Shown in pieces: positions 3,224 to 22,996 of a stretch of DNA of 24,734 nt. The notes beneath the pieces were generated by a model. That model ran no database searches. It saw nothing but the letters and a program-made list of their open reading frames with translations, and was not told the origin of the DNA. The position numbers were made by a program, and so were the translations under genes. Each line of letters opens with the position of its first letter. The stretch's first letter is position 1. Source of the DNA: a virus; the IMG/VR virus record IMGVR_UViG_3300046559_000532, positions 1 to 24,734 of that record; one strand, given 5' to 3'.

Positions 3224-3549
3224 CCGCGAGGGCCACGCGCTACGCGGTCGGGTCCATCGCCGTCGTAGCCCTCGTCGCGATGGAGCGGTGGCTGATGTCG
3301 CAGGACTGGACCGACTTTGCGAAGTGGTGCGCCTCGCTTGGGGTCGGCGGGATCCTGGCCGCCTTCATGTTCATGTTCTACCGGCGGGATATGAAAGACC
3401 GGCTCGCCAATCAGCAGCAGCAGACGGATCTGCTCACCGACGTGGTGAAAGAGAACACGTCGGCGATTACGACGCTCACGACGGAAATCCGGCTGCGCGG
3501 TGGGTGGCTCAGTGAACGGTACGCGCTGCGCAGCGAACGGCACAGTTAG
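3220..3549 (+). CDS. Holin-like membrane protein with C-terminal coiled coil (109 aa)
   Basis: The ATG at 3220 overlaps the previous TGA (ATGA). Two hydrophobic segments are visible: residues about 8-20 (YAVGSIAVVALVAM) and 41-53 (GVGGILAAFMFMFY). A charged segment RRDMKDRLANQQQQ follows, then a heptad-like region ending in LTTEIRLRGG. Size, two membrane segments and a cytoplasmic coiled coil are typical of small phage holins or XhlA-like proteins. The nearby lipoprotein-like and glycosidase-like genes support a role in lysis or envelope attack. No direct functional motif exists for holins, so the role is inferred. Confidence 0.7.
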   Translation: MTARATRYAVGSIAVVALVAMERWLMSQDWTDFAKWCASLGVGGILAAFMFMFYRRDMKDRLANQQQQTDLLTDVVKENTSAITTLTTEIRLRGGWLSERYALRSERHS

Positions 3550-3552
3550 CCC

Positions 3553-4068
3553 ATGCGAGTGGCTTACGCGGATCCGCCCTACCTCGGTTGCTGCGCCCTC
3601 TACGGCCACGATCACCGCTCCGGCTGTTGGAACGATCTGGCGACGCACGCGACGTTGATCCACCGACTGACCGAGGAGTTCCCCGACGGCTGGGCGCTCA
3701 GCGCGTCGTCGCCCTCGCTGCGCGAGCTGCTGCCGCTGTGCCCGCCTGACGTGCGCGTAGCCGCGTGGGTGAAGTCCTTCTGCGCGTTCAAGAAGGGTGT
3801 GCGTCCCTGCTACGCGTGGGAGCCGGTAATTTATCGCGGCGGCCGCAACGCCCACCACCCGCCGCCAGTCAAGGGCGGCAAGCAGACGACGCCCAAGGAT
3901 TTCATCGTTGCGCCGATCACGCTCAAGAAGGGGCTCACCGGCGCGAAGCCCGACGCGGTCTGCGCGTGGATTCTCGACCTGCTCAACGTGCAGGCCGGGG
4001 ACGAGGTCGTCGATCTCTTCCCCGGGACGGCGGCGATGACGCGGACGGCGGCGGCGCTCACCGTCTAG
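3553..4068 (+). CDS. Permuted DNA methyltransferase (N6-adenine/N4-cytosine type)
   Basis: At 171 residues it is shorter than most stand-alone DNA methyltransferases. The catalytic motif DPPY lies at residues 7-10 (VAYADPPYLG). The AdoMet-binding loop is at 154-159 (VVDLFPGT, the FxGxG-type motif I) near the C-terminus, preceded by KPDAVCAWILDLLNVQAGDE, the usual helix before motif I. Catalytic motif first and binding motif last is the beta-class (permuted) order. DPPY predicts an exocyclic amino acceptor on adenine or cytosine. A target-recognition domain is not obvious. The start has no Shine-Dalgarno and follows the previous stop as TAGCCCATG. Likely role: protecting phage DNA from host restriction or marking it; the target sequence is unknown. 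Confidence 0.85.
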   Translation: MRVAYADPPYLGCCALYGHDHRSGCWNDLATHATLIHRLTEEFPDGWALSASSPSLRELLPLCPPDVRVAAWVKSFCAFKKGVRPCYAWEPVIYRGGRNAHHPPPVKGGKQTTPKDFIVAPITLKKGLTGAKPDAVCAWILDLLNVQAGDEVVDLFPGTAAMTRTAAALTV

Positions 4069-4097
4069 CCCGCTAGACTTTCGTCATCCGCGCGCGT

Positions 4098-4103
4098 TAT
4101 CCT
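4098..4103 (+). promoter_or_regulatory. Weak -10-like box TATCCT before GTG 4113
   Basis: TATCCT ends 9 nt before the GTG at 4113. A separate TAGACT lies at 4074-4079 in the same short intergenic stretch, just after the methyltransferase stop. Neither has a clear -35. Either could drive the small membrane gene; the support is only the match to TAnnnT and the spacing. Confidence 0.25.
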
Positions 4104-4112
4104 CCCGCCATC

Positions 4113-4358
4113 GTGGTTGTCGGCTTCCTCGCCGCCATTCTCCTGACTGTGCTCACCCTTGGAGTGCTCACCATGGCCAAGCTCGCAGACGTGAACGATT
4201 CCCTCACCACCCAGACGGCCGCCATCGTGGCGCTCGCCGCCCGCATCCCGACCCCCGGCGCGGCGACCGAAGCGGACCTCGATACGGTCAAGGCCGGCAT
4301 CGACGCCAACACCGCCTCGATCAACCAGCTCGTGCCGCCCGTCACGCCCACGCCGTAG
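4113..4358 (+). CDS. Small membrane-anchored helical protein (81 aa)
   Basis: With the GTG at 4113 the protein begins with a strongly hydrophobic segment, residues 2-20 (VVGFLAAILLTVLTLGVLT). A soluble tail rich in Ala, Asp, Asn and Thr follows (LADVNDSLTTQTAAIVALAARI, then a second helix TEADLDTVKAGIDANTASINQL). An internal ATG at 4173 has a better ribosome-binding sequence (TTGGAG 9 nt upstream) and would give a 61-residue soluble form. Both products may be made, as in dual-start holin/antiholin genes, but this is inference. The clean hydrophobic segment argues that the longer frame is real. It sits in the run of membrane-protein genes. Confidence 0.6.
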   Translation: MVVGFLAAILLTVLTLGVLTMAKLADVNDSLTTQTAAIVALAARIPTPGAATEADLDTVKAGIDANTASINQLVPPVTPTP

Positions 4359-4370
4359 GCGAGTTCCTCC

Positions 4371-4772
4371 ATGGCTGACCACGCCGCCCCGTCGCCGCTC
4401 GGGCCGTCGATTCCCTGCTTGATGCAGGTGAATCCCTTCACGCCGAAGATTGACGGCAGTCTCACCTACCCGCAGACGAAACTGCGCGGGGGGTTGTTTT
4501 ACGTCGGCGAGGCCAATGCCGGGGCCGGCGGCGGCGCGCGCTACGTCTTCATCTCGGACGGCAGCTTCTACAAGTTCGACCCGAAGACTGGCGCCGGCCA
4601 GATCGGCGGCCCGGACACCGCGCCGAGCTTCCCGCAGGAAGCCATCCTCGTGTTCGATGGCGCGAAGGTCACGGCGCAACCTGGGTTCGATTGGTTCGCG
4701 CTCACGGGCGGGAACCCGCCGGCGTTCGATTACTCGGCGACGCGCTCGGATCAGGTGGCGGGAGCGGTCTAG
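4371..4772 (+). CDS. Hypothetical beta-rich protein (133 aa)
   Basis: ATG at 4371, 12 nt after the previous stop. The sequence is rich in short strands and turns (GGLFYVGEANAG, RYVFISDGSFYKFDPKTGAG, EAILVFDGAKV) and has two NPF/NPP turns. There is no signal peptide and no membrane segment; one cysteine lies near residue 16. I do not recognise the family. Its position directly before the putative glycosidase, joined by TAGCCCGTG, suggests the two proteins act together, for example as a binding module and an enzyme, but nothing in the sequence proves this. Confidence 0.65.
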   Translation: MADHAAPSPLGPSIPCLMQVNPFTPKIDGSLTYPQTKLRGGLFYVGEANAGAGGGARYVFISDGSFYKFDPKTGAGQIGGPDTAPSFPQEAILVFDGAKVTAQPGFDWFALTGGNPPAFDYSATRSDQVAGAV

Positions 4773-4775
4773 CCC

Positions 4776-5807
4776 GTGGCGTTCCTCTCGCAGGCGCCGT
4801 ACTACCTGGGGAAGGGGACGCACGGCCGGTCCCCGTACCCGCCGCCGCCCGATCGCTGGTCGCTGATGACGACCCCGTGGCACTTCCAGGGGCTGCGCGT
4901 GCCGGGCCTCCCCATGCCGCCGAACACCGGCTGGTTCGAGCCGGCCCTCGCGTGGATCGAGAAGGCGCAGCGGGCCGCCGTCTACGCGACCAAGGACGCC
5001 GCCGGCGACCGCCTCTATGGCCTGTCGCTCTCGGGCGCGTACATGGAACCGGGCCAGCCGTACGAACAGTACCCGGGCGTCGACTTCAGCCAGGACCTCG
5101 CCGCGCTCAACGCCCTCATCGACGAGATCCTCACGGGCAGCCGCCCGGGCCTCCCGCGTGCCATCCGCCTCTTCCTCGCCGGCGACGGCCAAGGCGCCGG
5201 CCCGGGCTACAACGACCCGGTCGGCCGGACCTACGGCCACGACTGGCTCGTGGCGAACTTCGAGCGCGTGGTCGCTTCCCTCGGCCCACGCGCCCAGTAC
5301 ATTCAATTCATCCCGGGGTACGACGCCATCTTCTACGGCTGGTCGCCGGCGCAAGTGGCTGCCTTCGGCAGCCTGTTTGACGCGGTAGTCCGCGTCAAGT
5401 ACCCGCACGCCGTCCTCGCGCTCGAGCACGGCATCGGCCACCCGCCGCTCGGCGACGGCGCCCTCAACTACGGCGTCGGCACCCAGATGGCGGCCTACGA
5501 CATCGTCGCGAGTGAGTACAACGGCCAAGGCGGCGACACGCAGTGTCTCGTGCACGACGACAACGTGTGGCAGATTAACGGCCGGCTGCGCTATCCCGAC
5601 GACCCGTACAATCGGCCGCCTGATCAGCCCGCCGGCGACGACCCCAACCCACCGGGGTACTTCGCCGACACGGCCCGCGGGCCGATCCTCCACGAGTGCA
5701 TGGAGTGGGCGATCTACGAGGACGTGCGCGGCTGGTGTACGCCGGCCGGTATCGAGAACGACCGGGCGTATCTCCGGGCCATGGTGCCGCACTCGCGCGT
5801 CGCGTAG
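4776..5807 (+). CDS. Putative TIM-barrel glycoside-hydrolase-like protein (343 aa)
   Basis: GTG start at 4776, 3 nt after the previous stop (TAGCCCGTG). The sequence reads as alternating helices and strands. Strand-like segments end in polar or acidic residues: DRLYGLSLSGAYME, IRLFLAGDGQG, QYIQFIPGYDA, AVLALEHGIGHPP, DIVASEYNGQGG, then RGPILHECMEWAIYED. This pattern, together with the many Trp/Tyr/His/Asp residues at strand ends, is typical of (beta/alpha)8 glycosidase-fold proteins. Candidate catalytic acids are the Glu in ALEHG and the Glu in VASEYNG, but the family is not identified. There is no signal peptide, so export would need a holin or virion location. It may be an endolysin, a virion-borne wall or capsule depolymerase, or an inactive sugar-binding barrel. 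Confidence 0.6.
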   Translation: MAFLSQAPYYLGKGTHGRSPYPPPPDRWSLMTTPWHFQGLRVPGLPMPPNTGWFEPALAWIEKAQRAAVYATKDAAGDRLYGLSLSGAYMEPGQPYEQYPGVDFSQDLAALNALIDEILTGSRPGLPRAIRLFLAGDGQGAGPGYNDPVGRTYGHDWLVANFERVVASLGPRAQYIQFIPGYDAIFYGWSPAQVAAFGSLFDAVVRVKYPHAVLALEHGIGHPPLGDGALNYGVGTQMAAYDIVASEYNGQGGDTQCLVHDDNVWQINGRLRYPDDPYNRPPDQPAGDDPNPPGYFADTARGPILHECMEWAIYEDVRGWCTPAGIENDRAYLRAMVPHSRVA

Positions 5808-5810
5808 ACT
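5805..5810 (+). promoter_or_regulatory. -10-like box TAGACT before the 68-residue gene
   Basis: TAGACT overlaps the stop codon of the glycosidase-like gene in the context GCGTAGACT, identical over nine bases to the box at 7004-7012. The next ATG is 27 nt downstream and has a Shine-Dalgarno sequence (GGGAGG at about 5825-5830), so a transcript from here would carry a short leader. Confidence 0.4.
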
Positions 5811-5837
5811 CAGCGCGCATCCCCGGGAGGGAACCCC

Positions 5838-6044
5838 ATGGGCCTGATTGAGTTCTTCGTCTACGTCATCGTCGTGGTGTTGGCCGCGGCCGCCGCCCAG
5901 TGGGTCATTGCGACCTACGCGCCCGGCACCCCCGAGATCATCAAGAAGTCAGTCTGGGCGCTCGCCGCCGTCCTCGTGCTCGTGATGCTGGCGCACGCGC
6001 TCGGTCTGTGGGGCTACGACCCGCAGATTCCGCGGTTGCGCTAG
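5838..6044 (+). CDS. Small membrane protein with two membrane segments (68 aa)
   Basis: The ATG at 5838 is preceded by CCGGGAGGGAACCCC, a good ribosome-binding site. Two hydrophobic segments are visible: residues 4-25 (IEFFVYVIVVVLAAAAAQWVI) and 41-57 (VWALAAVLVLVMLAHAL). They are joined by a short loop with PGTPEIIKK, and a positively charged end IPRLR follows. This layout matches small phage membrane proteins of unknown function that are often called holin-like. With several membrane-protein genes in this cluster, which one is the true holin cannot be told from sequence. Confidence 0.7.
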   Translation: MGLIEFFVYVIVVVLAAAAAQWVIATYAPGTPEIIKKSVWALAAVLVLVMLAHALGLWGYDPQIPRLR

Positions 6045-6150
6045 GTCAGCCTCCCCCGGCGGGTCGCCGCGTCGACTGGGTCGCCGGGCTCCCCCGGTTC
6101 GGCGAACGACGTGGTCGGCTCCCGGGGCGAGTTCGTGTAGAATCCCCGGC
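6045..6150 (+). promoter_or_regulatory. 106-nt non-coding gap with GC-rich structure and promoter box
   Basis: This is one of the larger non-coding gaps of the window. It contains a direct repeat GGGTCGCCG (6061-6069 and 6078-6086), a possible stem CCCCGG/CCGGGG enclosing a smaller GTTC/GAAC stem, and at 6138-6143 the -10-like box TAGAAT. That box lies 7 nt before the ATG at 6151 and is part of the exact 17-mer at 6132-6148 that recurs at 22723-22739. The structured part could be a terminator, but there is no T-run after it. Confidence 0.5.
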
Positions 6151-6378
6151 ATGCGACCCCTGCACTGGGTGGCCCTCGGGGCCTTCCTCACCTCCCTCTC
6201 GGCGCTCGTGACGACGCTCCCCACGTGGGCCGCCGCGACGACGCCGCCCTTTGTCGGCTCGGTCCTCGGGATGCTCGGCGCCTTTGCCGTGGCGCTCCTC
6301 TCCGGGCCGCCGATGCTCGGCTCGAACTTGGAAGCGACCTCGCAGGCGCTCCACATGAACGCGAAGGAAGGGACCTAG
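6151..6378 (+). CDS. Small membrane protein (75 aa)
   Basis: ATG at 6151 with the 7-nt gap from TAGAAT that suggests leaderless transcription; no Shine-Dalgarno is present. Residues about 5-25 (HWVALGAFLTSLSALVTTL) and 33-52 (FVGSVLGMLGAFAVALLSG) are hydrophobic, the latter Gly-rich like pore-forming helices. A short soluble end follows (SNLEATSQALHMNAKEGT). Not recognised as a family. Because the gene starts a unit with its own promoter box and is followed by a lipoprotein-like gene, a lysis role is possible. Confidence 0.65.
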   Translation: MRPLHWVALGAFLTSLSALVTTLPTWAAATTPPFVGSVLGMLGAFAVALLSGPPMLGSNLEATSQALHMNAKEGT

Positions 6379-14583: not shown

Positions 14584-15342
14584 GTGGCTGATCTCCTCCA
14601 GGCGGGTAAATCCGTCCTTGAAACCGTCCTCGGGAAGCTCCCCCAGGACAAAGCCGACGCGGCTCGGGCCATCTGGAATGACCCTGCGGCTGCGCCTGCG
14701 CTCGAAGAACTCGGGAACGCCGCCTTGCGCCGGGCTGATCACTCGCGCGCGCTCGACGAAGTCAAGCAATCGGAGGCACGGCTCCGCGACCACCAAGCCA
14801 AGCTCGACGCCTGGTGGACGCAGAACGAAGCCGCCGCCAAACTTGGCGCCGCCGCGCTCGACAAAGGCTGGACCCCCGAGGGAGGCTCGACCACGACCCC
14901 CGAGGTCCCCGCCGACGTCCTTCGCAAGAAGGAATTTGAGCAGGCCCTCAATCTTCGGGAAGAGGGCCAGCTGGCCTTCTATCTCGAATCCAACCGCCTG
15001 CGCGACCAGCATCTGGCGACCTTTGGCGAGGCATTGAACCTCCGTGAACTCGTGACCGACCCGCGCGTGGGTCAGCTCGGGCTCGACGGGGTGTACCAGG
15101 CCCGCTTCAAGGAGCGCCTCGACGAGAAGGCCACGACCGACCGGACCAAGCTGATCGAAGCCGAGGTGCAGAAGCGCCTCGGGGAAGAGCGCCGCCGCGG
15201 CGCCGATCGGCCCATCGTCCCGGTGAACGGTCAAGCCCCCTCGCCGCTGGACGCGCTGGCTCCCATTTCCGATGGGAAGCCGGGGCTGGTGCAAGACGCC
15301 GTCGCCGAGTACGAAGCCCTCGTCGCCGCGCGGACGCACTAG
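14584..15342 (+). CDS. Putative capsid scaffolding protein (252 aa)
   Basis: GTG start at 14584. The protein is almost entirely charged helix: DEVKQSEARLRDHQAKLDAW, a linker EGGSTTTPEVPADVL, then KKEFEQALNLREEGQLAFYL, DEKATTDRTKLIEAEVQKRL and GEERRRGADR. A Pro-rich linker (PIVPVNGQAPSPLDAL) and a short C-terminal helix follow. Size, coiled-coil nature and the position immediately before the major capsid gene are the usual marks of a scaffold that directs procapsid assembly and is removed before packaging. No protease motif is visible, so removal may be by exit or by an enzyme elsewhere. Confidence 0.75.
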   Translation: MADLLQAGKSVLETVLGKLPQDKADAARAIWNDPAAAPALEELGNAALRRADHSRALDEVKQSEARLRDHQAKLDAWWTQNEAAAKLGAAALDKGWTPEGGSTTTPEVPADVLRKKEFEQALNLREEGQLAFYLESNRLRDQHLATFGEALNLRELVTDPRVGQLGLDGVYQARFKERLDEKATTDRTKLIEAEVQKRLGEERRRGADRPIVPVNGQAPSPLDALAPISDGKPGLVQDAVAEYEALVAARTH

Positions 15343-15391
15343 CTCGCTCGGGCCTTCCCATCGCTGACCGCGCCCAGGAGGCGCTCTCAGC

Positions 15392-16441
15392 ATGGCTAAC
15401 ATTCTGCTCGACGAAGTCAACACGGTCGCGACCAAGAAGATCAATCGCGGCGTGGTCGACAACTACTTCAAGGCGGGGCCGCTCATCGCGTACCTCAAGA
15501 CCCGCTTCAACCAGAAGTGGACCGGCCCGCTCATCCAGGAGAACTACGAGTTCAAGGCGCTGAAGGGTGGCGCGTACAAGAAGGGCTCGACCTTCAACAT
15601 CACCCGCCAGCAGACCCGCTCGGGCATTCAGTTCACCCCGCGCTACTACGAGGTGAACATCACCGAGTTCCTGGAAGACCTCGAAGTCGAAATGGCCGGC
15701 CCGACGGCGGTCTTCTCGACCCTCAAGGTCGACATGGCGAACGCGGCCCTCACGATGAGCGCGATCCTCGAGATCGCCGCCTTCCAGAACGGCCAGAACG
15801 TGGGGGGCGTCGACCGCACGGCCGAAATCAACGGCCTCGAGGAAGCGTTCACCAACGGCACCGATGCGACCTGGAGCGGGAAGACCTTCCCGAGCTACGG
15901 CCTGCAGACGCGCGCCGCCGTCTCGCCGGCGCTCAACAGCCCGACCGGACTCATCGGCGCCAACATCGCGACGACGTCCTTCCGCATGCTCGAGCAGACG
16001 TACATGTCGTGCGTCATCGGGGCCGAACGGCCCAAGCTCGGCATCACGACCAACCGCGAGATGGGCTTCATCGCCGAGACCTTCACGCCGCAGCAGAAGA
16101 TCGACGTGCTCGACCCGGAGATCAACTGGCCTGGCCTGAAGTTCAACCAGGCGACGATCGTCGTCTCCCAGTACTGCCCCGGGCAGGATGGCGTGAATGA
16201 CGCCGACCTGGGCAACTACTCGAACACGTCGGAGACCTTCTGGTGGCTCAATCCCGGCCCCCAGGGCGACGACGCGTACCTCCGCCTCTACATCGCGGCC
16301 TCGCCCAAGTTCGCCTTCGGCTTCACCGGCTTCAAGGGCGCGCGCGATGACAACCAGGTCAGCGGGCAGATTCTCTTCGGCGGCAATCTCACCTGCCGCA
16401 GCCCGCGCCTCAACCGGGGCCTCTACGGCCTCACCAGCTAA
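15392..16441 (+). CDS. Major capsid protein (HK97-fold type)
   Basis: 349 residues with a strong Shine-Dalgarno (AGGAGG, 15376-15381). The N-terminal arm is MANILLDEVNTVATKKINRG, followed by VVDNYFKAGPLIAYLKTRF. An E-loop-like region is seen (YEFKALKGGAYKKGSTFNIT, RQQTRSGIQFTPRYYEVNIT). The spine-helix region is VFSTLKVDMANAALTMSAIL, and a P-domain and A-domain-like beta-rich C-terminal half ends RSPRLNRGLYGLTS. I recognise this layout from major capsid proteins of uncultured tailed phages. Its place after the scaffold and before a decoration-like gene supports the call. Codon use is strongly biased to G/C-ending codons, as expected for a highly expressed gene in this genome. Confidence 0.88.
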   Translation: MANILLDEVNTVATKKINRGVVDNYFKAGPLIAYLKTRFNQKWTGPLIQENYEFKALKGGAYKKGSTFNITRQQTRSGIQFTPRYYEVNITEFLEDLEVEMAGPTAVFSTLKVDMANAALTMSAILEIAAFQNGQNVGGVDRTAEINGLEEAFTNGTDATWSGKTFPSYGLQTRAAVSPALNSPTGLIGANIATTSFRMLEQTYMSCVIGAERPKLGITTNREMGFIAETFTPQQKIDVLDPEINWPGLKFNQATIVVSQYCPGQDGVNDADLGNYSNTSETFWWLNPGPQGDDAYLRLYIAASPKFAFGFTGFKGARDDNQVSGQILFGGNLTCRSPRLNRGLYGLTS

Positions 16442-16459
16442 GGGGAGAAGGAGGACATC

Positions 16460-17017
16460 ATGCCCAACAACTTCCCGCAGCAGACGCTGTACCTCGTCAG
16501 CGGCAGCCCGCAGACCGAGAACCGCGCGGCGACCGTCTACCCGGGCCAGCTCGGCCAGCGGGCCATCCTCGTCGACAAGTCGGACTCCAACCGCGCCAAA
16601 GGGTGGCAGGTCGTCCAGCTCGACTCGACGATGTCGGTGCTCCCGTATGCCGGCGCCGTCGCCTGGTGGAAGGATCGCGCCAAGTACCTCGTCACGACCA
16701 GCGCCTCGGCGCCGGGTCGCGGCCAGACCGCTGGCGTCTTCCAGTGCACCGCGGCCACGGCCCCGGTCACGGCCGACGTCACCGCGCAGAACATCGTGTG
16801 CATCCAGGTGAAGGGCCTCGGCAACGTGAACTACGTCGACTCGCCCTCGGGCACGCCCGACGCGACGGGCCTCCTGGTCGTCCCCTCGGCGACCGACGCC
16901 AAGGCGGACTGCCTCACGGCCGGCACGGCGGCGACCTACCCGAAGATCGGCTCGTCGGCCGGGGCCGCGACGTCGCACTTCGGCCTCGTCGACATCGACG
17001 TCGACGAGAATCCGTAA
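16460..17017 (+). CDS. Putative capsid decoration protein (185 aa)
   Basis: ATG at 16460 with a strong ribosome-binding site (AAGGAGG, 16448-16454). It is beta-rich with a short N-terminal arm (MPNNFPQQTLYLVSGSPQTE) and strand pairs such as RAILVDKSDSNRAKGWQVVQ and AAVAWWKDRAKYLVTTS-like (in the sequence AVAWWKDRAKYLVTTSASAP). It ends HFGLVDIDVDENP. A small beta protein directly after the major capsid gene, with a ribosome-binding site as strong as that gene's, fits a decoration or cement protein. I do not recognise a named family. Confidence 0.65.
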   Translation: MPNNFPQQTLYLVSGSPQTENRAATVYPGQLGQRAILVDKSDSNRAKGWQVVQLDSTMSVLPYAGAVAWWKDRAKYLVTTSASAPGRGQTAGVFQCTAATAPVTADVTAQNIVCIQVKGLGNVNYVDSPSGTPDATGLLVVPSATDAKADCLTAGTAATYPKIGSSAGAATSHFGLVDIDVDENP

Positions 17018-17026
17018 GGGGGATCC

Positions 17027-17347
17027 ATGCTCGCAGGTACCCTCGACAAGACGCAGAGTGGCAAGGCGCCCCAGGACATCGGGGCCACCACTCGGCGGTA
17101 TCTCTGCTCCTATGTCGGCCCGGCGTCGTACACGACCGGCGGCGACATTGGCGTGAAGGATGCGCTCGGCATCGGCAAGGTGTTCGTGGTGAATGGCTTC
17201 ATCCTGTCGAACGGGACGGCCATTCTCATCGGGCGCTACGAGCCGTCGACCGACGCCTTCCAGGTGTTCGACATGGCCGGGGCGGAAATCGCCGCCCTGA
17301 CCAATCTCAGCACCTACACGGCCTACATCGAAGTGATCGGCCAGTAG
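17027..17347 (+). CDS. Capsid-associated beta-rich protein (106 aa)
   Basis: ATG at 17027 with GGGGGAT upstream. The sequence alternates short strands and turns (RRYLCSYVGPASYTTGGDIG, KVFVVNGFILSNGTAILIGR, YEPSTDAFQVFDMAG, YTAYIEVIGQ). The TTGGDIGVKDALGIGKV part resembles a segment common in small head proteins of uncultured phages. It is probably a head-completion or surface protein. Its stop codon TAG lies inside the first of three consecutive hairpins, so this gene closes the head transcription unit. Confidence 0.65.
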   Translation: MLAGTLDKTQSGKAPQDIGATTRRYLCSYVGPASYTTGGDIGVKDALGIGKVFVVNGFILSNGTAILIGRYEPSTDAFQVFDMAGAEIAALTNLSTYTAYIEVIGQ

Positions 17348-17356
17348 GCCGATCAC
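17333..17356 (+). terminator. Hairpin 1 of three at the end of the head unit
   Basis: GTGATCGGCC (17333-17342), loop AGTA, GGCCGATCAC (17347-17356): a perfect 10-bp stem. The TAG stop (17345-17347) is at the loop. No U-run follows. Confidence 0.6.
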
Positions 17357-17358
17357 GC

Positions 17359-17380
17359 GGCGACGCCCTCGGGCGTCGCC
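17359..17380 (+). terminator. Hairpin 2 of three, 9-bp stem
   Basis: GGCGACGCC (17359-17367), loop CTCG, GGCGTCGCC (17372-17380): a perfect stem, 2 nt after hairpin 1. No U-run follows. Confidence 0.6.
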
Positions 17381-17391
17381 TGACGACCCTG

Positions 17392-17422
17392 GACGCCGGT
17401 GGGGATCCCCCTCACCGGCGTC
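17392..17422 (+). terminator. Hairpin 3 of three, 10-bp stem with inner GGG/CCC
   Basis: GACGCCGGTG (17392-17401) pairs with CACCGGCGTC (17413-17422). The interior GGGATCCC can extend the stem. A weak T-containing stretch (GTTCGTTGT) follows and merges into the promoter box at 17431. This is the most terminator-like of the three. Confidence 0.6.
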
Positions 17423-17430
17423 GTTCGTTG

Positions 17431-17436
17431 TAGAAT
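17431..17436 (+). promoter_or_regulatory. -10 box TAGAAT opening the tail/appendage unit
   Basis: TAGAAT lies 8 nt after the third hairpin, within TTCGTTGTAGAATCCC, a one-base variant of the exact 17-mer found at 6132 and 22723. The next ATG is 20 nt downstream with AAGGAG (17445-17450), so this transcript would carry a short leader with a good ribosome-binding site. Confidence 0.55.
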
Positions 17437-17456
17437 CCCTCCCCAAGGAGACTCGC

Positions 17457-17903
17457 ATGGCCAAGTTTGCGGTGGCGGGCAACAAAGGCACGGCGTCGGT
17501 GAAGTCGATCGTGAACGCGCGGGCGGCCGCCTCGGCCAGCGCGCGTGGCCGCGTCTACGACTACATGGTCGGCAGTCCCGCGACGCCGGCCGACAACGCG
17601 TTCGACCACGAGCTGGTCCGCAGTTCGACCGCTGGCACGGGCGCCGCGAACACGCCGAGCCCGCTCGACGTGGCCGACTTGGCCGCGACCGGCTTTGCGG
17701 CCAGTGACACCTACACGGCCGACCCGACGCTCGGCGTCGTGCTCCTGCGCGTGCCGGTGAACCAGCGCGGCACCTACCGCTGGGCCGCTCAGCCCGGTGG
17801 GGAACTGGTCTGGCCGGTCACCGCGAACAACGGCATCACCGGCGCCTTGGCCTCGGCCTCGGCCGTCGACTTCTCGGCCACGCTGATGGTCGATTCGCAG
17901 TAG
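17457..17903 (+). CDS. Putative virion structural protein (148 aa)
   Basis: It is the first gene of a new transcription unit, with promoter box TAGAAT and Shine-Dalgarno AAGGAG. An Ala-rich N-terminus (MAKFAVAGNKGTASVKSIVN, then ARAAASASARGRVYDYMVGS) is followed by a beta-rich body (ATGFAASDTYTADP, LGVVLLRVPVNQRGTYRWAA) and the end SAVDFSATLMVDSQ. The pattern looks like a small head or head-surface protein of the type usually found just downstream of the capsid gene. No exact family is recognised. Confidence 0.65.
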   Translation: MAKFAVAGNKGTASVKSIVNARAAASASARGRVYDYMVGSPATPADNAFDHELVRSSTAGTGAANTPSPLDVADLAATGFAASDTYTADPTLGVVLLRVPVNQRGTYRWAAQPGGELVWPVTANNGITGALASASAVDFSATLMVDSQ

Positions 17904-17917
17904 GGTCGGGGCCGACA

Positions 17918-18241
17918 ATGCCCGACCCTCGTGTCGCGCGCGGCTACGCCGTCTGGACCGACCCGGACGGCCCGTCCATCGAGCGCGACACGATCACGTG
18001 TTTCCACTGTCAGCACGTGATTCACGTCAAGCCCGGCTCGGCCCAGACGGTGTACCTCCTCCCGCCGCACCTGGGGGCGCCCCTCGGCACCCCGTGGCGG
18101 GAAGAGATGGGCGGCGGCTGCTACACCTGCCAGCGCCCGATCTGCCTCGCCTGCATCGAGAAGGGCGGCTGTGACCCCTGGGAGCGTCAACTCGACCGGA
18201 TCGAGGCCCGCGTCCGGCTCCATCGCGCGGTCGGCATCTAG
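17918..18241 (+). CDS. Small zinc-finger phage protein (107 aa)
   Basis: ATG at 17918. Cysteine pairs CFHC (residues about 28-31), CYTC, CLAC and the Cys of GGCDPWER (about 68-87) form a treble-clef-like pattern. The block GGCYTCQRPICLACIEKGGC matches a family I know from phages: 'GGxCxxCxxxICxxCxxxGxCxPWExxLE', next to structural genes and of unknown role. It is probably a structural zinc site; either virion or DNA/RNA-binding roles are possible. The stop is followed by a compact run of very short reading frames. Confidence 0.75.
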   Translation: MPDPRVARGYAVWTDPDGPSIERDTITCFHCQHVIHVKPGSAQTVYLLPPHLGAPLGTPWREEMGGGCYTCQRPICLACIEKGGCDPWERQLDRIEARVRLHRAVGI

Positions 18242-18243
18242 CC

Positions 18244-18342
18244 GTGCGCGCCCCTGCCGTGTCCACGGGCGGGGGCGGCGTCACGTATTACGAGGCGTAG
18301 CCGATGGCGCTCCTCGCCCATACGGTGTACGGGGTCTCGTAG
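18244..18342 (+). pseudogene. Two micro-ORFs, possible remnant of an original gene start
   Basis: GTG 18244 to TAG 18300 encodes 18 residues (VRAPAVSTGGGGVTYYEA). ATG 18304 to TAG 18342 encodes 12 residues (MALLAHTVYGVS), and the next ATG follows immediately. They may be genuine tiny genes joined by TAGCCGTG and TAGCCGATG, or the left-over beginning of an appendage gene whose N-terminal domain was replaced. The sequence just downstream has different codon use, which favours a recombination joint. Confidence 0.3.
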
Positions 18343-20775
18343 ATGCCCAGTCCCTCTGTTGTCCAGCGTGTCGGCACCACGTCCGGCGTGACAGGTTTTT
18401 CCGTCTCGGTCACGTTCCTCAGTCCGGTCTCGGTTGGAAACCTCATCGTGGTTGGCGTGCAAGCGCAGAGTGGAGGTGGTGCACTACTTCTACTCACAGA
18501 TGATGGAGGAAATAGCTACACGCTCACGCCAAACACGCCGCAGTTCAATGGCGGTGGAAATTACGAATTTATTGGCTACGCCGTCGCGACGACGGGAGGG
18601 ACACTCACAGTTACTGGTGCTTTTGCTGGTGGTGCGGGCTACTTCTGCATGGCCGCGTATGAAGTCGCCGATGCGGACACGTTTGTTATCGACAGCGGCG
18701 GGCAAGGGACCACGCCGGCTATTGATAGTGGCGTGCTCTCCCTTGGCGGCGCGGACTGCATCATCATCGCGCAAATGGAAACGGACACGAGGGGCATTAG
18801 CGCCTTCGGTCCGGGCTACACGGGGAATAGCTCCGACGGCACCAACTACATCTACGATGAATACCATGTCACCTCCGTCGATGAGGCGGCTACGGCAACG
18901 GCCGCTGGAAGTGCCAATTGGGGCATCATCGCGGCGGCGTTCAAGGCGGCATCGGGTCCTCCCCCGACCCCGGCCTATTGCTACCGCCGCACGCTGACGG
19001 TCGATCACACCCAGTGCGGCGCGTCCGACTCGACCGACTTCCCCGTGCTCGTGCGGTTCACCGACGCCACGATGAAAACAGTGGCGAACGGCGGTCACAT
19101 CCAGAACACCACCACCTCAAACGGCCAGACCGTGCCGGCTGACCTCGGGTTCTACGCGGACTCAGCCTTCACGACGGCCCTCAACTGGGAAGTCGAGTTC
19201 TACGACGGCGTGAACGGCATCCTCGTCGCGTGGGTCAAGCTGCCGACCCTCTCGCACACGGCAGACACCGTGTTCTACATGGCCTACGGCGATGCCGGGA
19301 CGACGACGTTTCAGGGCGACGTCAACGGGACGTGGAACAGCAACTTCAAGGGCGTCTGGCACCTGCCGGACGGTACGACGCTCGCGGCCACAGGATCGAC
19401 GGCGACACCGCACAACGGCACGATCACCAGCGCGGTCGCCGCCGCCGGGAACATCGACGGCGCGGCCAGTTTTGCGGGAGGCACTGACAAGATCGATTTC
19501 GGCGCGAGCGCGGATTTCGCCTTCGCCGCCTCCTTCACCGTCTCGGCCTGGGTCAAGACGAGCACGAGCCAACTGGCGTTCCTGTTCGGGATTCAGCACC
19601 TGCCGTTTGGGTCGACCGCCTTCACGATGAAACAGGAATCGGCCGTGCCGCAAGTCCATTGGCACGTCGAAGGCGCGACGAGCGACTGCCATTACCTCAC
19701 CGGCATCGACGACGGGAACTGGCATCACCTCGTCGGCCAGTGGGATGCGGGCGCGGCCGATTCCTACCTCTATGTCGATGGGGTCCTCACGCCCTCGGGG
19801 GGCGCCGGGGGCGCGAGCACGCCGGTCTCGACGGTCCCGCTCACCGTCGGGCTCCCCGATTCAGGCGGCACGGCGTTTACCGGCACCGTCGATGAACTCC
19901 ACGCGGTCAATGCGCTCCTCTCGGCCGACTGGATCGTGTCTGAGTTCAACAGCCAGATGCCGGCCTCCACGTTCCTCGGCGTGAGCGGCGAAACCTTCCT
20001 CTGCGGCGTCACCGTCGTCCCGACGATCTACCCGGACTGGCTCGCGCGCGTGCCGCAGACGCGTGGCTGGTACGCCGCCCCGCCCGCGCCGCCGGTCGCC
20101 CCGCCGTGGATCTCGGTCGACGCGCCCGATCAGGTCCGGCGTGGCGAGACCGGCCGCCTCGGCTGGGAGACGCGACCGCTCCTGCCGCCGCCGGCGCCGG
20201 CCCCGACGTACTTCACCGACACGTTCCCGGATCAGGTTCGCAGCGGGACGAAGGCGCCCGAGGGCTGGTACACGCGCCCGACGACGCCGCCACCCGCCCC
20301 GCCGCTCATCGAGACCGCCCTCCCGCAGGCCCGGTACAGCGTCCCGCTCACCCGGACGACCTACACGGCCCCGGTGACCCCGCCGCCCGCGCCGGCGCCC
20401 ACCTACTTCGTGGATGTCTTCCCGGATCAGGTGCGGCGCGCAGGCTACGCCGCCCCCGACTGGCTCGCCGAGCCGATCCTGCCGCCGCCGGTGCCGTACA
20501 CCGAGTGGGGCCAGACCGAGCCGCTGCACCTGCGCGTGTCGTGGCGCGACCTCACCGCCACCACCGAGCCGCTCCGCATCATCCAGAACCCGGTGCCGCC
20601 GCTTTCGTGGGGGGTTATCTATCCCGACCATCTCACCGTCGTGCGGTCGGCCGCGCTCCTTGGGGCGGCCTACCATGCCCCGTACGGCCCGACGCCCCCG
20701 CCGCACGAGCGGCCGCTCTATCGCCGGAGTCTGCAGCTGCGCATCGGCAGCCGCACCGAACCCGAAAAGCTATAG
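18343..20775 (+). CDS. Mosaic tail/appendage protein: beta domain, DUF2341, LamG, proline-rich repeats (810 aa)
   Basis: Residues about 1-205 are a beta-sandwich domain of adhesin or tail-fibre type (SPVSVGNLIVVGVQAQSGG, LLLTDDGGNSYTLTP, ending WGIIAAAFKAA). About 212-325 match DUF2341 (YCYRRTLTVDHTQ, DFPVLVRFTDATM, DTVFYMAYGDAGTTTFQ). About 330-550 are a LamG/concanavalin-like domain (FKGVWHLPDG, SFTVSAWVKTSTSQ, NWHHLVGQWDAGAADSYLYV, TGTVDELHAVNALLSADWIV). From residue 563 to near the end are seven degenerate repeats of about 33 residues with [FY]PDxVxR and PPPAP elements. The first 205 residues use more A/T-rich codons than the rest. It is likely a carbohydrate-binding virion appendage; whether the C-terminal repeats bind the particle or the host is not shown. 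The stop lies in the TATAGGAT box. Confidence 0.8.
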   Translation: MPSPSVVQRVGTTSGVTGFSVSVTFLSPVSVGNLIVVGVQAQSGGGALLLLTDDGGNSYTLTPNTPQFNGGGNYEFIGYAVATTGGTLTVTGAFAGGAGYFCMAAYEVADADTFVIDSGGQGTTPAIDSGVLSLGGADCIIIAQMETDTRGISAFGPGYTGNSSDGTNYIYDEYHVTSVDEAATATAAGSANWGIIAAAFKAASGPPPTPAYCYRRTLTVDHTQCGASDSTDFPVLVRFTDATMKTVANGGHIQNTTTSNGQTVPADLGFYADSAFTTALNWEVEFYDGVNGILVAWVKLPTLSHTADTVFYMAYGDAGTTTFQGDVNGTWNSNFKGVWHLPDGTTLAATGSTATPHNGTITSAVAAAGNIDGAASFAGGTDKIDFGASADFAFAASFTVSAWVKTSTSQLAFLFGIQHLPFGSTAFTMKQESAVPQVHWHVEGATSDCHYLTGIDDGNWHHLVGQWDAGAADSYLYVDGVLTPSGGAGGASTPVSTVPLTVGLPDSGGTAFTGTVDELHAVNALLSADWIVSEFNSQMPASTFLGVSGETFLCGVTVVPTIYPDWLARVPQTRGWYAAPPAPPVAPPWISVDAPDQVRRGETGRLGWETRPLLPPPAPAPTYFTDTFPDQVRSGTKAPEGWYTRPTTPPPAPPLIETALPQARYSVPLTRTTYTAPVTPPPAPAPTYFVDVFPDQVRRAGYAAPDWLAEPILPPPVPYTEWGQTEPLHLRVSWRDLTATTEPLRIIQNPVPPLSWGVIYPDHLTVVRSAALLGAAYHAPYGPTPPPHERPLYRRSLQLRIGSRTEPEKL
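20029..20720 (+). repeat. Seven degenerate ~33-codon repeats in the appendage gene
   Basis: Units begin at YPDWLARVP (20029), APDQVRRGE, FPDQVRSGT, LPQARYSVP, FPDQVRRAG, EPLHLRVSW and YPDHLTVVR (20620). Unit length is 32-34 residues. Strongest shared parts are [FYA]PDQVRR, a Trp or Tyr about 14 residues later, and PPPAPAPTYF. Units 2, 3 and 5 are the most alike, also at the DNA level (TTCCCGGATCAGGT occurs in two of them). Confidence 0.75.
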
Positions 20776-20784: not shown

Positions 20785-22107
20785 ATGCCGGCTGAGAACC
20801 TCCAGCAGTACAACCTGACCCAGCCGCTCGTCTTCATCCTCATCGCGGCCGCCGACCACATTTCACCCGTCGTCGGGGCGACGCCAACGGTGGTGCTGTC
20901 CAAGGCCGGCAGCCCCTTCACCCCGGCCGCCGGCGCCGTGAGCGAGATCGGCAACGGCTGGTACCAAGTCGCGCCGAACGCGGGCGACGCCAACACCCTT
21001 GGCCCGCTGATCCTGCACGCCTCGGCGACCGGCGCCGACCCGGTCGACACCCAGTACGCGGTCGTCTCGTTCTCGCCCCTCCAAGTCGTCCCGACCGCGC
21101 CCTCGGTCGTGACCCCAGCCGCCGGCCCGGGCGTCCTCACGTTCGAGGACGTGTGGCGCAAGGTCCGCCTCTACGCGCCGAACGCGCCGCTCCACCTGGT
21201 CCGCACGTGGGTGCAGGACGCCTTCCGCACGCTCGTGATGAAGCGGCAGTGGGGCTGGGTCGTTGCGCAGGACCAGATTACCTTCGCGGCCGCCCGCCAA
21301 GTCGACTGTGTGGTCACCCTCGGGTCGACGCTCGTCACGGCTGCGGTCGCGACGTTTGTCGCCGGGGATGCCGGCCGGCAGTTCCGTCAAGGGACGTGGC
21401 CGATCTACACGATCCTCTCGGTGGCGGCCGATGGGAGTTCCGTGACGCTCTCGCTGGCGTACCACGGCCTGTCCGCCGGCGCGGTGAGCGCGACCATTTC
21501 CGACTGCTACGCCACGATGCCCGTCGACTTCGGCGCGTTTGTCGTCGTCGTCGACCCGATCTATCAGCGGATGGTCCCGTGGTGGGGCACGCAGATGGAG
21601 CTGGACCTCATCGACCCGAACCGCACGGCGGCCGATGCGACGCCGCGGTTGCTGGTCCCGTCCTCCAACAGCGTCTTCAGCGCGACGCGCGGCCAGATGC
21701 AGTACGAGTACTGGCCCAAACCCACCGCCGCCGGGGCCTTGCAGTACTACTATGCGCGCCGGCCGGTGCTCCTCGCCGATACCGACGCCATCCCGGGCCT
21801 CCTCCAGTCCCGCGTCGACATCCTCGAGACTGGGGCGCTGGCGCGTGCCGCCAAATGGCCTGGCACGCTCGACCAGAAGAACCCGTACTTCAACCTCATG
21901 CTGGCGCGTACGCTCGACGCCGACTTCGAGCTGGCGGCCCAGCAGCTCGACCTGCGCGACGACGACCAATGGCAGCAAAGTTTTGACACGATTCCTTGGC
22001 AGCGGTGGAACATGTACACGTGGGCGTACAGTACACATTTGCTGCAAGCCAGCGACGCGACCCTGTCTTCCTACGCGAACTGGGGAGGGGGAAGTCTTGG
22101 CTGGTAA
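20785..22107 (+). CDS. Head-tail adaptor-like protein with N-terminal Ig-like domain (440 aa)
   Basis: Residues 1-100 look like the beta domain found at the start of some baseplate/appendage proteins (LTQPLVFILIAAADHISPVV, TPTVVLSKAGSPFTPAAGAV, GNGWYQVAPNAGDANTLGPL). From about 117, the segment TFEDVWRKVRLYAPNAPLHL, then VRTWVQDAFRTLVMKRQWGW, is helical and typical of head-tail connector proteins of the gp4/gp6 adaptor kind. Beta-rich and helical parts follow, with LQYYYARRPVLLADTDAIPG and ARAAKWPGTLDQKNPYFNL. From about base 21969 codon use shifts toward A/T (AGT, TTT, ATT, CCT, ACA, TTG, TCT, CTT), next to the HNH gene, whose start it overlaps by 11 nt. Confidence 0.65.
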   Translation: MPAENLQQYNLTQPLVFILIAAADHISPVVGATPTVVLSKAGSPFTPAAGAVSEIGNGWYQVAPNAGDANTLGPLILHASATGADPVDTQYAVVSFSPLQVVPTAPSVVTPAAGPGVLTFEDVWRKVRLYAPNAPLHLVRTWVQDAFRTLVMKRQWGWVVAQDQITFAAARQVDCVVTLGSTLVTAAVATFVAGDAGRQFRQGTWPIYTILSVAADGSSVTLSLAYHGLSAGAVSATISDCYATMPVDFGAFVVVVDPIYQRMVPWWGTQMELDLIDPNRTAADATPRLLVPSSNSVFSATRGQMQYEYWPKPTAAGALQYYYARRPVLLADTDAIPGLLQSRVDILETGALARAAKWPGTLDQKNPYFNLMLARTLDADFELAAQQLDLRDDDQWQQSFDTIPWQRWNMYTWAYSTHLLQASDATLSSYANWGGGSLGW

Positions 22108-22722: not shown

Positions 22723-22739
22723 TTCGTGTAGAATCCCCG
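22723..22739 (+). promoter_or_regulatory. Exact 17-mer with -10 box TAGAAT before the 81-residue gene
   Basis: TTCGTGTAGAATCCCCG is identical to 6132-6148. TAGAAT is at 22729-22734; the ATG at 22751 is 16 nt downstream with GAGG between. It restarts transcription after the HNH insertion. Confidence 0.6.
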
Positions 22740-22750
22740 ACGAGGACCTT

Positions 22751-22996
22751 ATGGCTGAACTCCAGACCCCGTTCGAGAAGGCCGTGGCGAGCGCCCCGTC
22801 CGGCAGCCCCTCCGGCGACGGCAACACCACCGGTGGCTTCGACCTGCCCGGCGGCGCCGAGAAAGAGTCGGCCAATTCGATGTCGGGCCTCCCGGCCCAG
22901 ATCACCACCTTCGGCGTCACCGGCGGCGAGAACGGCCCGGGCACCCAGGTCGACATGCCGCCGGTGGCTTCGCCGGGTACCTTCAAGACCGAGTAG
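22751..22996 (+). CDS. Small Gly/Pro/Ser-rich hypothetical protein (81 aa)
   Basis: ATG at 22751, with CGAGGACC upstream. The sequence is low in complexity and probably disordered: MAELQTPFEKAVASAPSGSP, then GDGNTTGGFDLPGGAEKESA, and the end DMPPVASPGTFKTE. The phrase VDMPPV recurs in the next protein (GVDMPPVPATG), which may mean shared origin or chance. No family is recognised. Confidence 0.6.
   Translation: MAELQTPFEKAVASAPSGSPSGDGNTTGGFDLPGGAEKESANSMSGLPAQITTFGVTGGENGPGTQVDMPPVASPGTFKTE

Follow-up and report, generated by a model that had tools for sequence, protein, structure and literature searches.

Transcription of the capsid operon in the virus fragment analysed here is probably interrupted by a leaky intrinsic terminator, accompanied by two extra hairpins, that closes the unit formed by the major capsid protein gene (MCP) and two further genes, A and B, and it would be restarted by a promoter that serves a movable gene cassette. 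The window, that is, the whole stretch of DNA that was analysed, is a linear fragment of 24,734 nt with a GC content of 68% (IMG/VR record IMGVR_UViG_3300046559_000532). Its three hairpins, H1, H2 and H3, lie together within 90 nt after gene B (17333-17422; Table 1). They are real and beyond chance, and the joint looks like a variant of the leaky stop that some phages put after their capsid genes, lowering the amount of later products. A sequence-only reading of this DNA had taken the place for a unit boundary, with a terminator followed by a promoter. This proposal gains from the recurrence of hairpins at the same joint in relatives and from the recurrence of the GTAGAATCCC box; termination itself we infer.

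Gene content of the locus

Proteins of the window match terminase, portal and the major head protein. Upstream of the hairpins the genes are ordered MCP-A-B, and downstream follow C, D, the laminin-G-like gene E and F. Searches with the MCP and portal proteins returned only the phages Tunturi_1 and Tunturi_2 (MCP 25%, portal 23-24% identity), which are described as podoviruses of Acidobacteriota with the host Tunturiibacter (PMC11924767). HMMs built from relatives and run against three Tunturi_1 proteins, gp9-gp11, paired gp9 with A, gp10 with B and gp11 with F, and thus the gene order is shared with Tunturi_1. The host of the window phage is a guess, because it rests on 23-25% identity to the Tunturi phages. 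No relative was found in the bacterial genomes scanned with the MCP alignment and with a part of the terminase, and a DNA search of phage records with 17000-17900 gave no match.

Gene A has no PHROG or Pfam match. The structure model of the gene B product reaches a pLDDT of 90.5; structure searches with it gave weak PDB matches and two predicted viral proteins without known function (E 1.8e-4 and 2.4e-4). The model of the gene C product aligns with the HFTV1 turret (VIA, Z 7.6, 96 aligned, 3.2 A), a match tied with many others, and the VIA matches at Z 6-7.6 comprise, beside the turret, many other coat and non-viral proteins. These matches are suggestive of a jelly-roll and, with every Z below 8, too weak for naming the protein. 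That B is the last head gene, as the sequence-only reading had it, is therefore not established, given the predicted jelly-roll protein encoded beyond it.

Gene F has a weak match to SU10_adaptor (E 7.6e-4, under the Pfam cut-off). In the window it carries approximately 118 extra N-terminal residues (20785-21138), which are absent from the F matches of eight relatives; these matches begin at residue 106-120 of the window protein. The extension is a domain fused to the adaptor-like protein.

Several hairpins were also observed elsewhere in the window. The one that begins in the stop codon of gene C is present in L003 and L006, two close relatives of the window, and has one mismatch in a third, L002; translational coupling of C and D is possible. 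The second strongest hairpin of the window (18249-18277, -21.9 kcal/mol) lies just past gene D and is found in L002 and not listed in L003 or L006. This hairpin and H3 would then enclose C-D and set it off as a unit of its own. At 1102-1144, two back-to-back GC-rich hairpins without a T-rich tail stand at the stop codon of the gene at 458-1102.

Table 1. Features of the window at and around the joint between genes B and C
Feature	Position	Strand	Remarks
GTAGAATCCC copy	6137..6146	+	TAGAAT at 6138, ATG at 6151
MCP, major capsid protein gene	15392..16441	+	PHROG 9953 major head protein, E 2.5e-8
Gene A	16460..17017	+	homologue of Tunturi_1 gp9 (annotated head scaffolding protein); HMM 2.9e-15
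Gene B	17027..17347	+	106 aa, mostly beta; homologue of Tunturi_1 gp10; directly before the hairpins; HMM 1.4e-17
Outer helix, 5' strand CTACATCGAA	17323..17332	+	possible
Hairpin H1	17333..17356	+	10 bp, loop AGTA, over the gene B stop; -18.5 kcal/mol
Gene B stop codon TAG	17345..17347	+	H1 loop and first base of the H1 3' arm
Hairpin H2	17359..17380	+	9 bp, loop CTCG; -18.2 kcal/mol; varies in relatives
Hairpin H3	17392..17422	+	13 bp with one G-U, 5-nt loop; -26.4 kcal/mol; candidate terminator
Partial U-tract GTTCGTTG	17423..17430	+	also the upstream half of the promoter motif
Outer helix, 3' strand TTCGTTGTAG	17424..17433	+	possible
GTAGAATCCC, promoter -10 type box	17430..17439	+	TAGAAT 17431-17436; one of three exact copies in the window
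AAGGAG	17445..17450	+	ribosome binding site of gene C
Gene C	17457..17903	+	predicted beta jelly-roll; first gene past the boundary, ATG at 17457; model pLDDT 87.5
Stop-overlapping hairpin	17902..17929	+	begins in the gene C stop codon; gene D start codon (17918) in the loop
Gene F	20785..22107	+	head-tail adaptor-like; homologue of Tunturi_1 gp11 'tail protein'; HMM 1.2e-22
GTAGAATCCC copy	22728..22737	+	TAGAAT at 22729; upstream of the gene at 22751

Structure of the three hairpins

As had been noted from the sequence, three stems follow gene B and the first lies across its stop codon. The stem lengths given at that time, 10, 9 and 10 bp, stand for H1 and H2; H3 is longer, although it has an alternative pairing of 10 perfect bp around an 11-nt loop. 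The hairpins are separated by gaps of 2 and 11 nt and are unequal: H3, which begins 45 nt past the stop codon of gene B, is the strongest hairpin of the window and is followed by a half-strength U-tract (GUUCGUUG). Where the sequence-only reading saw no classic U-run, a partial, interrupted U-tract with 5 T in 8 does exist. The 10-nt tails of H1 and H2 hold 0 T and 2 T, respectively. With 13 bp and -26.4 kcal/mol, the predicted stem of H3 is of the intrinsic-terminator kind.

RNA folding, which had been suggested as a check, supports the structure: a 141-nt stretch folds at -83.3 kcal/mol against -54.3 +/- 4.2 for dinucleotide shuffles (z -6.9), and none of the 200 shuffles does as well. Stems of at least 9 bp within 100 nt formed 0 triples and 2 pairs in 100 first-order Markov sequences as long as the window; the window itself holds 1 triple, and 12 such stems compared with a Markov mean of 2.5. 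A scan for dense hairpins, defined as three stems of -15 kcal/mol or lower within 110 nt, was run on both strands of 748 kb, consisting of the window, 53 cluster representatives, 15 longer stretches and 4 close relatives with some overlap. It found two places only, the triple of the window and L033 5070-5231 of G001; the four close relatives fail it because H2 is mismatched there. The cluster in G001 sits in a called gene (3294-6269).

A terminator scan of 14800-20500 returned 3 sites, H3 among them, versus 2.9 from shuffles, which is the chance level. Further, the T-rich stretch that makes up the U-tract belongs to the promoter motif TTCGT(T)GTAGAAT and may owe its T content to the promoter; for the window itself, the U-tract argument is weaker for that reason.

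Conservation in close relatives

In four close relatives (L002, L003, L006 and L007), H1, the spacer 17383-17391, H3 and the stretch 17423-17456 are unchanged (98 of 98 positions in each), and H2 with its edges (17357-17382) shows 2, 4, 5 and 4 changes per 26 positions, respectively. At third codon positions these relatives diverge from the window as follows: MCP 0-6%, A 5-20%, B 1-11%, C 3-12% and D 7-20%. Of C, L007 includes 16 nt, which are unchanged, and it has nothing of D. For H1, the 12 positions from the stop codon onward are too few to inform. With H1 and H3 invariant and H2 changing, the triple resolves into a strong invariant H3, a hairpin at the stop codon and a drifting H2. Next to the H2 stem, the bases at 17358/17381 pair as C-G in three relatives and as A-U in L007 and do not pair in the window; a further pair of the H2 region is A-U in the window only. 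Covariation thus amounts to one compensatory pair (C-G to A-U, in L007), a value reached by 213 of 500 shuffles; the close relatives are so nearly identical at the joint that covariation is not informative. Gene E of L006 and of L003 is 53% and 32% identical to that of the window, respectively, over part of its length.

A conserved triple-hairpin RNA was considered and rejected, and the earlier view of three hairpins in series does not survive as one conserved unit. The triple is confined to the window and these four near-identical relatives, where H2 is already mismatched, and beyond them the joints analysed carry none, one or two hairpins. The search for triple stems at the same joint in related phages, proposed with the original observation, gave hairpins there in other lineages, singly or in twos, and some lineages with none.

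The candidate promoter box

The TAGAAT found 8 nt past H3 is a box of the sigma-70 -10 type and part of the recurrent intergenic GTAGAATCCC. Three exact copies of the latter exist in the window against 0.015 expected, all intergenic, on the coding strand and shortly upstream of a start codon, and through them the box has better support than the sequence-only reading could offer. If one mismatch is permitted, 3 or more matches are also seen in 4 of 100 shuffles. The plus strand of the window has three TAGAAT sites and the minus strand none.

In four genomes, with gene calls from our own script, TAGAAT lies outside genes at 9 of 9 sites (window 3, G001 5, G002 0, G009 1), compared with 120 of 515 for its 59 anagrams; two of the window sites are orthologous to two G001 sites, which leaves seven independent ones. 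An ATG follows within 7-20 nt at 8 of the 9 sites, and all five sites of G001 stand before starts. At the 6138 box and at three G001 sites the ATG comes only 7-10 nt past the box, so that an mRNA starting there would be nearly leaderless; these sites suggest leaderless mRNAs.

Among eight A/T patterns, TANNNT is the most intergenic on the plus strand (7.8-fold). It is also raised on the minus strand (5.0-fold), and TANNNA is raised too (4.1-fold), so the enrichment is in part due to the scarcity of TA in coding sequence. No promoter-like pair with a -35 element TTGACA at 16-18 nt was found in 14800-20500. The 63 stretches retrieved from viral contigs with a 14-base promoter pattern come without a chance level and are left aside. 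The GTAGAATCCC box would provide a concrete promoter motif for the window's clade.

The joint after gene B in distant relatives

Clustered at 90% nucleotide identity of MCP, the 81 loci, with the window among them, gave 54 clusters. Of these, 46 had a readable joint after B, and 52, 47 and 41 had one after MCP, A and F, respectively. Hairpins of -18 kcal/mol or lower, starting between -25 and +70 nt from the stop codon, occur after B in 17 of 46 clusters, after MCP in 1 of 52, after A in 5 of 47 and after F in 0 of 41, which gives 17/46 versus 6/140 with coding hairpins included (p 1e-7). If 9 of the 17 B matches and 2 of the 5 A matches are set aside as the coding start of the next gene, a decision made by inspection and post hoc, noncoding hairpins remain at 8 of 46 B joints versus 4 of 140 MCP, A and F joints pooled (Fisher p 0.0018). 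The eight clusters are those of the window, L051, L053, L054, L066, L067, L079 and L118; for two of them, L054 and L118, the F match extends a few residues upstream of the assumed start, and the hairpin ends near a possible coding start. G002 and G009 have strong hairpins between genes at other joints too, so the contrast for the B joint holds only against the three neighbouring joints.

The 10-nt tails of the eight hairpins hold 32 T in 80, versus a T content of 15-18% in the records, and the 10 nt that precede the hairpins, where a tail on the opposite strand would stand, hold 18 A in 80. The best U-tracts are GTTTTCTTTC in L051 and TGTGTTCTCT in L054. Hairpins of different lineages at this joint are unrelated in sequence. 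In L124 (MCP 28-29%), two hairpins stand before F, and the second is followed by TTGTTGTTTT; B was not detected in this locus, and the place of the joint was taken from the gene order.

A strong noncoding hairpin is absent from the B joint in 38 of the 46 clusters. The called gap after B is shorter than 20 nt in 23 of 46, and no boundary is shown there. Nine called gaps measure at least 60 nt; two of them (L098, L080) were judged to result from miscalled starts, and the other seven all hold hairpins, five strong and two weak (L068, L117). Among 12 joints that were folded, z-scores run from -7.6 in the window to -0.2 in L117; L067 (-1.2) and L068 (-1.6), like L117, fold little or no better than shuffles.

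Gene F, or the gene containing its match, directly follows B in 38 of 46 clusters; another gene stands between B and F in 6, the window included, and 2 are without an F match. In the 16 other clusters where C has its expected length, it is located behind F, 1.3-2.1 kb past B. From these gene orders, the C-D pair, at 17457-18241 in the window, appears to be a cassette that has moved, placed directly after B only in the window's clade among these clusters. In nine clusters (L061, L065, L078, L080, L088, L091, L093, L094 and L101), strong hairpins of 10-13 bp were seen in the first codons of the adaptor-like gene, within a similar coding stretch; they are either a coding accident or a translation-control structure.

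The gp10/gp11 joint of Tunturi_1 contains a small 5-bp hairpin right at the stop codon and the hairpin AGGGGCGGG..CCCGCCCTT, behind which stands TTCTCT; the 597 bases queried are identical in Tunturi_2. The joint of these phages (PP887698, PP885685) resembles that of the window in its homologous flanking genes, in the hairpin at the stop codon and in the strong hairpin upstream of the next gene. In contrast to the window, it has one strong hairpin, a better U-tract, no TAGAAT box and an unrelated sequence. The whole Tunturi joint is only modestly above shuffles (z -1.3 and -2.0 in two folds). The words terminator and promoter are absent from the main text of PMC11924767.

A proposed leaky terminator followed by a promoter

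The observations at this joint are best explained by the following sequence of events. A polymerase that has passed MCP, A and B would make H1 and H2, partly masked by the ribosome that ends gene B. A ribosome covers roughly the first dozen nucleotides past the stop codon, so that a ribosome finishing gene B would mask H1 but not H3, which would fold some 45 nt past the stop codon, clear of it. Together with its half-strength U-tract, H3 would release a fraction of the polymerases. The outcome would be a large pool of capsid-operon mRNA ending in compact hairpins and a smaller read-through pool with the downstream genes. At the GTAGAATCCC box right after H3, transcription of the C-D cassette would begin anew; in the window's clade this cassette is found between B and the adaptor-like gene. 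The two other hairpins, H1 and H2, would be accessory to the stop at H3: they may aid pausing or shield the 3' end. A protective role is possible for both.

In two cases, L051 and Tunturi_1, the box is missing and a ribosome binding site comes immediately after a terminator-like hairpin; the gene behind it is F in Tunturi_1. The next gene would then be reached by read-through, as in T7, unless antitermination or an unseen promoter is at work. Because the hairpins are unrelated between lineages and their position recurs, selection would keep the place and the leakiness of the stop, not its sequence.

Alternative explanations

It is possible, though unlikely, that the hairpins mainly stabilise a 3' end. 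The polymerase would stop further on, by Rho or otherwise, and 3'-5' exonucleases would trim the transcript back to the hairpins, which would protect the capsid mRNA. Such a role agrees with the T-poor tails of H1 and H2, with the position of H1 adjoining the coding end, and with hairpins without good U-tracts as the 3'-terminal structures of Rho-dependent transcripts, as reported in passages of PMC8269248. However, trimming would have to coexist with read-through mRNA, given a promoter box and a gene no more than 35 nt away, and some relatives have better U-tracts at the same joint. Stabilisation and a leaky terminator are not mutually exclusive.

We consider it improbable that the region forms a structured RNA, in which an outer helix of CTACATCGAA and TTCGTTGTAG would join the three hairpins in a four-way junction to which a protein binds, or which is processed or set free as a small RNA. 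The helix (9 pairs, one U-U mismatch, 4.2 kcal/mol) belongs to the MFE fold of the window and of the four close relatives, and its chance with random flanks is about 0.015. Yet its 5' strand is coding and its 3' strand is promoter motif, so the complementarity may be accidental, and the helix was not seen in the other joints folded. The Rfam family ar7 matches below threshold (E 0.002); a known RNA family was rejected, as the gathering score was reached by none (ar7 25.2 of 60 bits, ar14 21.4 of 58.8, CcsR1 18.3 of 65.3). In a related proposal, which seems to us decidedly improbable, the end of gene B, H1-H3 and the tail would form one four-way-junction RNA whose outer helix and H1 need the ribosome gone, so that 3' ends would track the translation of gene B and the ratio of capsid to downstream mRNA would respond to it. 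With one strand coding and the other promoter motif, the helix lends this proposal little weight.

That the hairpins are a functionless by-product of high GC content and coding constraint is very unlikely. The window has 68% GC, the 5' arm of H1 is coding, and coding hairpins are common in these phages; against this stand the z-score of the fold, the lack of triples in 100 Markov windows, the invariance of H3 and its flanks in close relatives and the hairpins at the joint in other lineages. Least of all do we expect the stems to be DNA-level palindromes bound by phage or host proteins that control the downstream promoter, even with a 10-nt DNA palindrome GGGGATCCCC inside H3, a 3' arm of H3 in the would-be -35 region and a weaker hairpin (6081-6105, -14.4 kcal/mol) ending 32 nt upstream of the 6138 box copy, since no listed hairpin lies just upstream of the 22729 copy and the joint hairpins of the relatives are unrelated in sequence.

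Comparison with known systems

The leaky-terminator reading has parallels in GC-rich bacteria. Passages of the study by Gupta and Pal (2021; PMC8355165) describe hairpins that cluster near stop codons, within 80 nt, at spacings below 15 nt, with a mean of three hairpins per cluster and two the commonest; the clusters are favoured at high GC, and a U-trail is not required and is often missing. The hairpins of the window likewise keep to that distance from the stop codon and to that spacing; unlike these clusters, which belong to host operons, they are in a phage, and H1 overlaps the stop codon. In Streptomyces clavuligerus, the 3' ends called HS-U-rich have a hairpin below -23 kcal/mol with at least 3 U in the next 8 nt, as given in part of PMC8269248. 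At -26.4 kcal/mol and with 5 T in 8, H3 would pass, although these values were derived in S. clavuligerus from the 40 nt upstream of mapped 3' ends and may not be those of the host. As such hairpin clusters and weak or missing U-tracts are published for GC-rich bacteria (PMC8355165, PMC8269248), the host-specific type of terminator that had been considered for the joint is not needed. Narrow literature queries for a hairpin terminator at the capsid end of a phage and for triple hairpins found nothing, which does not imply absence from print.

In phage T7, the adaptor is the product of gene 11. According to passages of the T7 literature, a single terminator for T7 RNA polymerase follows gene 10 (PMC5592923, PMC6068830), and genes 11-12 are expressed only by read-through of this terminator, Tphi (PMC5592923; also PMC6068830). 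A terminator after MCP is likewise described for LUZ100 in part of PMC10134795. The window shares with both the site past the capsid genes and downstream genes that would partly need read-through, and the hairpins of several relatives and of Tunturi_1 precede the adaptor-like gene; with F directly after B in most clusters, the layout resembles that at Tphi. There are also differences: Tphi serves the phage's own RNA polymerase, whereas the polymerase at the joint of the window may be another; A and B stand between MCP and the site; and in the window's clade the adaptor-like gene is preceded by the extra hairpins, the promoter box and a C-D-E cassette. What is added to these known systems is that unrelated hairpins recur at one joint across a family extending to a cultured phage of Acidobacteriota, plus a promoter motif. 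If the leaky-terminator reading is true, uncultured phages related to podoviruses of Acidobacteriota would use a T7-like layout, with many capsid and fewer downstream transcripts.
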